Shown here piece after piece: positions 17,282 to 20,090 of a stretch of 43,984 bases of DNA (its first letter is position 1; every line of letters starts with the position of its first letter). The DNA lies in contig JAUVDP010000007.1 of the NCBI GenBank assembly GCA_030595255.1, forward strand, positions 1-43,984, written 5' to 3'. This DNA is from Mycoplasmatota bacterium. GTDB taxonomy: Bacteria; Bacillota_I; Bacilli_A; Izemoplasmatales; Izemoplasmataceae. The notes beneath the pieces were generated by a model. The model did no database searches. It saw only the letters and a list, made by a program, of their open reading frames with translations, and was not told where the DNA came from. The position numbers and the translations under genes were made by a program.

Positions 17282-17479
17282 TTAGATACTTTCGATGTTT
17301 GATGCTTGAGGACCTTTGTCCCCGTCAACAACGTCAAAAGATACTCTTTCATTTTCGTCTAAACTTTTGAATCCGTCTTTTTGAATTTGTGAGTAATGAG
17401 CGAAAATGTCTTGCCCTTCATCAGTAGTAATAAATCCGTATCCTTTTTCAGAATTAAACCATTTAACTTTACCAGTCAT
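17282..17479 (-). CDS. Cold-shock domain protein (CspA/CspB family)
   Basis: A 65-residue single-domain nucleic acid chaperone. [14 protein letters not shown] contains RNP1 (KGYGFI, 12-17) and DIFAHY (24-29) is the RNP2 equivalent, slightly altered from the usual VFVHF. Such proteins melt RNA secondary structure and act as transcription antiterminators. I choose the ATG at 17479: GGAGGT sits 7 bases upstream, and an earlier in-frame ATG at 17494 would lie inside that ribosome binding site. The leader of roughly 110 bases is long for this genome, as is common for cold-shock mRNAs. Monocistronic with a strong terminator. Confidence 0.95.
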
Positions 17480-17594
17480 GTTTGTTACCTCCATATTTTA
17501 TTTGTTCCTTACTGCAAATACTGCTTTATAAAATATAAAAGTAACTTGGTTAATTTTCATTTTATTACATTATTTGATTTTTCAGGTCTATTAC

Positions 17595-17635: not shown

Positions 17636-19273
17636 TTATTTCTTCTTAAATGAAGAACGTAGCGAAACTATGCGGTTAAATACTAGTTTATCTTTTGTAC
17701 TATCAGGATCAACACTATAATAACCATTCCTTGTAAATTGGAATCTATCATGAATCTTAGGATTAATGTCTTTTTCAAAATATCCATGTTTAACAATTAT
17801 TGAATTAGGATTTACTTTTTCAATAAAAGGAACATCCTTATCTTCAAAATCTAAGATTAAATCTTCGAATAATCTAAATTCAGCTTCTACATTGTTAGTA
17901 CCATCAACAAAATGGATATTACCATTAGGTTTTCTTTCATTAAATCCAGATCCTGATTTAGTTATTGGATCATAAGTACAGTTAACTTGAATGATCTTAC
18001 CAGATTCATCTTTAACAATACTATTTGCTTTAACAAAATAAGCATGCATTAATCTCACTTCAATCCCTAAAGCAAGGCGTTTCCACTTCTTATTAGGTTT
18101 TACTTCAATGAAGTCTTCTCTTTCAATATAAACAGTTTTACTAAAAGATATTTGTCTAGTACCTAACTCAACATTCTCTCTATTATTTTCAGCTTCTAAG
18201 TATTCAACTTGTCCTTCTGGATAGTTATCAATAACTAATTTTAAAGGATCAAGTACTGCGTTTACTCTTGGAGCTTCTAACTTTAAAGTTTCTCTAATAA
18301 TTTGATCTAACATATCTATTGATGTTTCACCTTGAGTTTTAGGTAATCCAACTGAATATATAAAATCTCTTATAGCTATTGGTGGAACTCCTCTTCTTCT
18401 AAGTCCACTCAAAGTAATTAATCTAGGGTCATCCCATCCACTAACTACACCGTTATCCACTAAATCTTTAATATATCTTTTGCCAGTAACTTTATGTGCC
18501 ATAATTAATTTACCAAATTCAATTTGTCTTGGCACATCTTTCATTTCTGTATTTTCTACAACCCAATCATATAAAGGTCTATGGTCTTCAAACTCTAAAC
18601 TACATAAACTATGTGTAATCCCTTCAATTGCATCTTCAATAGGATGTGCATAATCATACATTGGATAGATACACCATTCATCTTTAGTATTATGATGATA
18701 AGCTCTTTGTATTCTATATATTACAGGATCTCTTAAATTCATATTAGGGCTTTCCATATCAATCTTCGCTCTTAAAACACGAGACCCATCAGGAAACTTC
18801 CCTTCTTTCATACCTATAAATAATTCTAAGTTCTCTTCAATACTTCTATCTCTATAAGGACTATTCTTCCCTGTATTAGTTAGATTACCGCGGTATTCTC
18901 TAATTTCCTCCGCAGTTAAATCATCTACAAAAGCTTTACCTTTTTTTATTAAAACTAAAGCTCTATTATACATTTCTCCAAAATAATCACTCGCAAAATA
19001 AAGGTTATCCCACTTACAACCAAGCCAAGCAATATCTTCTTTAATCGCTTCAACAAACGATACATCTTCCTTCACAGGATTTGTATCATCAAAACGTAAA
19101 TTGAAATTACCTCCATGTAATTTAGCCATTGAGTAATTTGTGATAATAGCTCTTGCATGTCCTAAGTGTAAAAAACCGTTAGGTTCAGGTGGAAATCTAG
19201 TAACAGCTTTCTTATGTTTTCCACTTCTTATATCTTCTTCGATTATTGTATTTATAAAATGACTTACTTCCAT
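17636..19273 (-). CDS. glnS: Glutaminyl-tRNA synthetase
   Basis: A 545-residue class I synthetase of the GlnRS type: FPPEPNGFLHLGHARAI carries the HIGH-like motif (HLGH, 36-39), RFDDTNP follows, and HKVTGKRYIKDLV stands at the KMSKS position. The C-terminal anticodon-binding beta-barrels are full length, with GYYSVDPDST near the end. It charges tRNA-Gln directly; many Firmicutes lack it and use GatCAB instead. I prefer the ATG at 19273 with GGGTGA 5-6 bases upstream over an in-frame GTG at 19282. A leader peptide with tandem Gln codons precedes it, suggesting control by charged tRNA-Gln (inference). Confidence 0.95.
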   Translation of the reverse strand: MEVSHFINTIIEEDIRSGKHKKAVTRFPPEPNGFLHLGHARAIITNYSMAKLHGGNFNLRFDDTNPVKEDVSFVEAIKEDIAWLGCKWDNLYFASDYFGEMYNRALVLIKKGKAFVDDLTAEEIREYRGNLTNTGKNSPYRDRSIEENLELFIGMKEGKFPDGSRVLRAKIDMESPNMNLRDPVIYRIQRAYHHNTKDEWCIYPMYDYAHPIEDAIEGITHSLCSLEFEDHRPLYDWVVENTEMKDVPRQIEFGKLIMAHKVTGKRYIKDLVDNGVVSGWDDPRLITLSGLRRRGVPPIAIRDFIYSVGLPKTQGETSIDMLDQIIRETLKLEAPRVNAVLDPLKLVIDNYPEGQVEYLEAENNRENVELGTRQISFSKTVYIEREDFIEVKPNKKWKRLALGIEVRLMHAYFVKANSIVKDESGKIIQVNCTYDPITKSGSGFNERKPNGNIHFVDGTNNVEAEFRLFEDLILDFEDKDVPFIEKVNPNSIIVKHGYFEKDINPKIHDRFQFTRNGYYSVDPDSTKDKLVFNRIVSLRSSFKKK

Positions 19274-19318
19274 TTTATTCACCCATTTCTATAGTTTTAT
19301 TGTTAATAGTGTAAATAT

Positions 19319-19348
19319 TCAAAATAGGCTAACCTGCTGGACTTTCAT
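19319..19348 (-). CDS. Putative glnS leader peptide MKVQQVSLF
   Basis: A nine-codon frame ending in TGA, encoding MKVQQVSLF. AGAGGTGA lies 5 bases before its ATG, a better ribosome binding site than that of glnS itself. Codons 4 and 5 are CAG CAG, whereas all 14 Gln codons I read in fbp are CAA. The frame begins about 25 bases after the predicted start and ends 45 bases before the glnS ATG. By analogy with leader peptides of amino acid and synthetase operons, ribosome stalling at the Gln codons could regulate glnS. I see no T-box and no strong GC hairpin with a T-run, so the mechanism is open. Confidence 0.65.
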   Translation of the reverse strand: MKVQQVSLF

Positions 19349-19379
19349 ATGAATCACCTCTATGTATATGATATTCTAT

Positions 19380-19388
19380 ATAATAACA
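19380..19388 (-). promoter_or_regulatory. Extended -10 promoter of the glnS leader
   Basis: TGTTATTAT on the minus strand, 17 bases beyond the preceding terminator hairpin. The -35 position (TTTTAT) is weak. Expected start is about 19373, leaving about 25 bases before the leader-peptide ATG. Confidence 0.55.
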
Positions 19389-19404
19389 CAATAAATAGCA
19401 ATAT

Positions 19405-19436
19405 AAAATCGAGAAAAACTATTTTTTCTCGATTTT
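19405..19436 (-). terminator. Terminator with the stop codon in its loop
   Basis: AAAATCGAGAAAAA pairs with TTTTTCTCGATTTT (14 bp) around a loop that begins with the complement of 19419-19421, the TAG stop codon of the charged-protein gene. The descending arm ends in TTTT. It separates the envelope block from glnS. Confidence 0.82.
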
Positions 19437-20090
19437 TTCTTTGATTTCTTTAAATTGATTAATACTATCTTCAAAAACACCACTTTTTTTACTAAGCCAC
19501 CCATAAAATCTTTCATCATCTAGTACTTCTTGAGATATTACATCAATTTCTAAATAATGATTATTAAGATAATTAATAAAATCCTCAACTTTTGTATATT
19601 TCTTATTTCTAAATATATATACCTTTTGATCTTTGATGTTAGAGAACTTTGTTTCCTTGTTTTTTTGTCTTCTTGATTTTTTCTTATCTTTAATTGGCTT
19701 TTCTTTAATCTTTTTATTATCTTTCTTGCTTTTTTCAAAGTAAGAACTAAGTTCTTTCTTATCTTTTACATCTTCTTTTAAGTCTTCTTTTGCTTCTTTA
19801 TTAACTCGCGCTTCTTTGAGAGAGGTAATTTCTATTTCATCTTCATCAACTACGCATTCAGTAGTTGGGTCATTATCATAGTAAGTGAATTTACCAACAA
19901 CTAATTCTTCTGATTCAGGTACTTCAATCTCAAATTCATCATTAATTATATTAACTTCTTGGATAGTTTCAGTTTCTTTTTCAACTTCTTCTATTTCTTC
20001 TTTTTTATCAGATTTAGGTTCTTCTTTAGAAGTAGCTACAATTATCTCTTCTTCAAATATAACTTCTTTTTTCTTTTTCTTCTTAAACAT
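19419..20090 (-). CDS. Highly charged protein with a compact C-terminal segment, function unknown
   Basis: Not recognised. The 223-residue protein begins MFKKKKKKE, then about 140 residues of Glu/Lys-rich low-complexity sequence, probably disordered. The last 65 residues (from KVYIFRNKKYTKVEDFINYL to the end, with FYGWLSKKSGVFEDS) look like a folded helical domain. There is no signal peptide or membrane helix, so it is likely cytoplasmic. Its ATG overlaps the end of the upstream membrane gene by 8 bases, preceded by GAGGGGG, so the two are translationally coupled and may act together at the membrane (inference). The terminator hairpin holds its stop codon. Confidence 0.7.
   Translation of the reverse strand: MFKKKKKKEVIFEEEIIVATSKEEPKSDKKEEIEEVEKETETIQEVNIINDEFEIEVPESEELVVGKFTYYDNDPTTECVVDEDEIEITSLKEARVNKEAKEDLKEDVKDKKELSSYFEKSKKDNKKIKEKPIKDKKKSRRQKNKETKFSNIKDQKVYIFRNKKYTKVEDFINYLNNHYLEIDVISQEVLDDERFYGWLSKKSGVFEDSINQFKEIKEKIEKK

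Follow-up and report, generated by a model that had tools for sequence, protein, structure and literature searches.

The window, by which we mean the whole stretch of 43,984 nucleotides analysed, carries on its minus strand the glutaminyl-tRNA synthetase gene glnS, which starts at position 19273, and a short reading frame led by its own ribosome-binding site is located upstream of this start. The features of the region are listed below in the direction of glnS.

19405-19436, called on the plus strand only: intrinsic-terminator-like hairpin between glnS and the upstream gene (scan)
19373-19401, minus strand: promoter-like TTGCTA-N17-TAGAAT ahead of the leader (consensus scan; by-eye match in relatives)
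19354-19361, minus strand: leader ribosome-binding site AGAGGTGA, its AGGTGA core invariant among 11 distinct aligned leaders
19319-19348, minus strand: leader reading frame MKVQQVSLF plus TGA (from sequence; kept at glnS in 12 genomes)
19334-19339, minus strand: putative regulatory codons CAG CAG (Gln4-Gln5); Gln-Gln in 12/12 genomes, CAG CAG in 11/12
19321-19329, minus strand: anti-Shine-Dalgarno segment GCCTATTTT within the reading frame of the leader, paired with the glnS Shine-Dalgarno (SD) sequence in the predicted minimum-free-energy (MFE) structure and ensemble
19280-19288, minus strand: glnS SD region AAATGGGTG, core GGGTG at 19284-19280 (from sequence; predicted pairing)
17636-19273, minus strand: glnS, glutaminyl-tRNA synthetase (GlnRS), 545 amino acids, with 98% identity to the protein of Ca. 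Izimaplasma HR2

The leader DNA reads ATG AAA GTC CAG CAG GTT AGC CTA TTT TGA from 19348 to 19319 on the minus strand, and its stop codon lies 45 nt from glnS. By the identity of its glnS product to that of HR2, the window is assigned to Candidatus Izemoplasma. A preliminary description of this DNA had proposed the MKVQQVSLF frame with its own ribosome-binding site before glnS and CAG CAG at codons 4 and 5, and both were confirmed, the binding site at 19361-19354 and the codons at 19339-19334. The extended -10 that it placed upstream is present, but TTGCTA-17-TAGAAT at 19401-19373 is the better-conserved reading of the promoter. Visual inspection showed a TTG...-17-TANAAT-like match at the corresponding position in almost every genome with the leader and in the leaderless genome G006, and the automatic pick differs from this by-eye match in G002, G003 and G005. 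Judging from its near-symmetric sequence, the hairpin at 19405-19436 may also terminate the upstream gene on the minus strand (19419-20090). A cold-shock-protein gene is located directly 3' of glnS (17282-17494, minus strand), and Rfam reported a cspA thermoregulator near glnS of a relative (L118, 1074-1461).

The leader precedes glnS in 12 genomes of uncultured bacteria that lack a cell wall. They belong to Candidatus Izemoplasma and two related genera. The encoded peptides are MKVQQVSLF (three genomes), MKVQQESRFYQI, MKVQQKALFRVK, MKVQQITLFSEI, MKVQQSALF, MKVQQNTRIRKNRVKIK, MKVQQNTQISIEDVIKK, MEIQQPTQSEDHQPFRPSRENLKG, MKVQQNTRIIKQYRHN and MKYQQNTLSSR. When the family genomes were searched with the DNA pattern RTGRARRTCCAGCARNNNNNCC, it was found once per genome in 11 of 49, in each case at glnS, and the controls gave 0 matches; the twelfth genome has MKYQQ. 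A sequence model recovered the 12 full-length leaders within the order, and across 395 genomes of the class it added none. The glnS genes of other Firmicutes and of the order's remaining families likewise yielded no similar leader. In a scan of 152 regions upstream of glnS elsewhere for SD-led short frames, no comparable leader was detected, and the single further QQ frame (L071) is apparently due to chance.

Detailed comparison of the leaders revealed that Gln4-Gln5 is kept in all of them, the only change being a synonymous one (CAG CAA in G048). Replacements occur at codon 2 (K/E) and codon 3 (V/Y/I, with TAT and ATC among the codons), the sequence from codon 6 on is as free as the length (9-24 amino acids), and the relatives' leaders end with TAA, TAG or TGA at varying places. 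A conserved peptide arrest motif after Gln5 was considered but found no support, because the residues there drift. At the DNA level AAA GTC CAG CAG is almost invariant, and the near-invariance of AAA GTC is more than codon sensing alone needs. The fourfold-degenerate sites of glnS show about 33-46% identity when G000 is compared with most of the other lineages, and only 12 of 129 (9%) are identical between G000 and the GC-rich G048, so that synonymous sites of glnS appear to be near saturation between the lineages with the leader. Since these sites are so diverged, the leader must be regarded as being under selection. Conservation of the frame and its Gln codons in relatives, on which the preliminary description had staked its proposal, thus holds across three genera. 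The leader label on the glnS tree needs three changes, and because the deep forks of the tree are open, gain and loss of the leader are not settled.

G006, which is nested in the genus beside G005 with 100/97 support, has no leader: the promoter and AGAGGTGATTTTG are followed immediately by ATGAAAGTAAGTCATTTT at the glnS start, and glnS now uses the former leader SD as its own. Since the junction falls within sequence common to the leader start (ATGAAAGT) and the glnS start (ATGGAAGTAAGT), a deletion between short matches is the simple reading. Such a loss is as expected if the leader is a dispensable regulator. Two entries for the region, L007 (G006:C70 upstream of glnS) and L022, apparently represent a single MAG record. 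G048 (L100) is the only GC-rich member with the leader (53% GC in glnS), and the TGA stop of its leader overlaps the glnS SD GGGTGA; by analogy, this overlap suggests an additional layer of control by the terminating ribosome, as in the rtpLP leader of Bacillus subtilis discussed below.

We then examined the pairing of the leader with the glnS SD. Ensemble folding predicted that the glnS SD pairs with the leader anti-SD in every genome with the leader at a probability of 0.60-1.00, and the value for the window is 0.79. In genera g6 and g17, CACCC pairs with GGGUG; in Izemoplasma, CCCU or GCCUAUUUU pairs with AGGG or AAAUGGGU. The mean probability of the glnS SD being unpaired was 0.11, compared with 0.41 when the intervening sequence was shuffled. 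The leader/SD duplexes gave p values of 0 to 0.066 per genome against shuffles, and combined p values would overstate the case because the leader lineages are few and related. Own and swapped duplexes differ little (-9.9 vs -8.9 kcal/mol). Pairing of the anti-SD with the SD of the leader itself was rejected, with predicted values of 0.00-0.05. The core of the anti-SD is positioned at leader nt 18-22 in all genomes (20-28 in the version of the window), and the variable elements are the stop position and the distance of the leader to glnS (69-86 nt).

The preliminary description had noted no T-box at glnS, and this was borne out: neither a T-box nor another Rfam family reached the gathering score in the window, and a T-box (RF00230) at glnS was rejected as no covariance-model match lies upstream. 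In 20 other Firmicutes and Mycoplasmatota, glnS was likewise not preceded by a T-box at threshold. The T-box resembles the proposed leader in that it also senses tRNA charging, and it is in regular use in these bacteria. About ten T-boxes per genome are present in the genus ahead of synthetase genes, none of them at glnS. The genome of the window has ten (L294-L303), nine before synthetase genes and one before an amino-acid-type ABC transporter ATPase gene; as read from their translations, the former are homologues of leuS, hisS, ileS, alaS, tyrS, serS, pheS, asnS and thrS. In congeners, valS is probably also preceded by a T-box.

CAG is a rare codon here, accounting for 35 of 293 Gln codons (12%) in 25 open reading frames of the window, and the Val codon GTC for 33 of 948 Val codons in the same frames. 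The glnS gene itself contains 8 CAA and 0 CAG, which is not significant alone at 12% CAG. The search for a tRNA-Gln(CUG) gene that the preliminary description had recommended detected none in the closed relative G046 or the recovered part of the own genome, where tRNA-Gln(UUG) is the only tRNA-Gln found. GatB was not found in eight congeneric genomes (G000-G007), and GlnRS is therefore likely the sole source of Gln-tRNA.

Based on these observations, we suggest, with a probability of about 0.72, that the glnS leader is a translational attenuator that senses charged tRNA-Gln. First, an SD-led short frame is located between the promoter and the regulated gene. Second, the codons conserved in it specify glutamine, the amino acid handled by the product of that gene (Gln4-Gln5, 12/12). 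Third, a segment of the leader is predicted to sequester the downstream SD in all genomes (pairing 0.60-1.00). Ribosomes would start on the short 5' frame at its own strong SD. As long as Gln-tRNA is charged, a ribosome would run through CAG CAG and leave, the segment just after the Gln codons would pair with the glnS SD, and translation of glnS would be low. With charged tRNA-Gln in short supply, the ribosome would instead wait for it at CAG4 or CAG5 in the A site, and its 3' edge at about leader nt 22-25 would cover the anti-SD (nt 18-22, or 20-28 in the window), by which the glnS SD would be freed and GlnRS raised. Translation of the leader, the stalling, and the direction and size of the response are what we infer in this reading. 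In standard geometry the 3' edge of a stalled ribosome lies about 15 nt past the first base of the P site. For a ribosome whose A site holds CAG4 or CAG5, this puts the edge at about nt 22-25, so that the anti-SD core is covered; a Gln stall would thus require just the spacing between Gln codons and anti-SD that is conserved.

That a leader ribosome senses charged tRNA-Gln and acts by translation, as first proposed from this DNA, is therefore supported by the conserved frame and Gln codons and by the failure to find Rho or a terminator. The likely effector, which the preliminary description missed when it considered action by translation without a terminator, is the anti-SD directly after the Gln codons.

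Here, we need to consider that the folding model fails to single out Gln stalling. When the footprint of a Gln-stalled ribosome was masked, the mean accessibility of the glnS SD rose from 0.12 to 0.32-0.36, but a ribosome masked at the leader stop codon gave 0.51 and thus frees the SD as well or better. Masking of the footprint frees the SD best outside the immediate relatives of the window. In HR2, which differs from the window by one base, masking raises the accessibility only from 0.21 to 0.25-0.32. In the sequence of the window itself the fold has a z-score of 0.03, no better than shuffles, and the accessibility is 0.00-0.01 with the stalled ribosome masked and 0.01 after a CC-to-AA change in the anti-SD; the SD stays closed in both cases because another local pairing takes over. 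The window is therefore the weakest case, where the predicted switch is least clear in silico.

These results bear on a constitutive upstream frame, which would keep the region unfolded or couple translation and set a fixed level of glnS without sensing Gln. Any ribosome on the leader would open the anti-SD, including the one at the stop codon described above, and in genus g17 the leader stop is only 5-24 nt from the glnS start, overlapping the SD in G048, as coupling would have it. However, the position of the stop is not conserved, with a gap to glnS of 5-52 nt across genomes, and such a frame leaves unexplained why Gln-Gln is kept in 12/12 leaders when other codons drift, why the rare CAG is used over CAA, and why the spacing from the Gln codons to the anti-SD is fixed. 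We regard this explanation as improbable, yet it survives best among the alternatives to charged tRNA-Gln sensing.

The threonyl-tRNA synthetase of Escherichia coli binds its own mRNA, and the leader could in the same manner be recognised as an RNA element by a factor acting in trans, such as GlnRS or another protein, with the frame being incidental. This would account for ATGAAAGTCCAGCAG being nearly invariant as DNA, including the rare Val codon GTC, beyond the need of the amino acids. On the contrary, AGGTGA, ATG and an open frame are kept in all leaders, Gln is kept even where codon 3 is TAT or ATC or codon 5 is CAA, and a stem-loop resembling the tRNA-Gln anticodon arm was not seen in the MFE structure of the window, which makes this explanation decidedly unlikely.

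The pheST operon of E. coli has a synthetase leader-peptide attenuator that works through a terminator. Likewise, trpS and leuS of Streptomyces have synthetase leader attenuators acting through a terminator/antiterminator (PMC1262725), and these classical systems share with glnS a synthetase gene under a leader rich in cognate codons. Control of transcription or RNA decay through the same leader, for which these precedents speak, has very little probability here, because no intrinsic terminator was found between leader and glnS on the minus strand, as the preliminary description had noted for a strong terminator, a classical attenuator with a hairpin and U tract after the leader was rejected, and so was a Rho-dependent one, the Rho RNA-binding domain (PF07497) having no match in eight family genomes (several incomplete drafts, three closed or nearly so) with nine controls positive. 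Control would thus be exerted on translation (or decay).

The proposed charged tRNA-Gln sensor can be compared with known leaders. The rtpLP leader of B. subtilis rtpA (anti-TRAP), reportedly described by Chen and Yanofsky in 2003/2004, has tandem Trp codons and works mainly by a terminating ribosome that blocks the rtpA SD. The glnS leader differs from it in targeting a synthetase, in having the anti-SD inside the frame and, in the window, in a stop codon 45 nt from glnS; the leader of genus g17, whose stop is close to the SD, is more rtpLP-like. In addition, rtpLP senses Trp and acts with an upstream T-box, whereas no T-box was found with the glnS leader. What the two would have in common is a Firmicute leader on which tRNA-dependent ribosome stalling, for lack of the charged tRNA, controls translation initiation of the next gene (PMC11255114).

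The LEU element upstream of leuA in Actinobacteria, a predicted leader peptide, likewise combines regulatory codons with pairing of the leader region to the SD of the next gene; in contrast to the glnS leader, the Leu codons themselves pair with the SD, a pseudoknot has been proposed, and the gene is a biosynthetic one (PMC1262725). Sequence resemblance between the LEU element and the glnS leader is not expected. In ermC-type translational attenuation a ribosome stalled on the leader also frees a sequestered SD, but there the stall is caused by the antibiotic and nascent peptide and not by codon starvation. By these analogies the mechanism would be of a known kind (rtpLP, LEU element).

A search of the accessible literature found no relevant paper on Gln-codon leaders or glnS leaders, in agreement with the preliminary description, which knew of none, although such absence is not proof of novelty. 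The chances seem about even that this is the first-described Gln-codon leader controlling GlnRS by translation, that it arose in one branch of a T-box-using order, and that the rare, wobble-read CAG stalls the sensor before the CAA-coded glnS message. If the attenuator reading is true, a sensor of tRNA-Gln charging of only about 75 nt would exist in bacteria in which neither Rho nor GatB was detected, and the T-box control used at other synthetase genes of the same genome would be bypassed by a simple reading-frame switch, for which the leaderless congener G006 provides a natural control. Among the glnS matches, L291 (G080:C128:4453-6054), which may be a pseudogene or reflect an assembly error or another cause, contains 5 TGA and 4 TAA codons inside.
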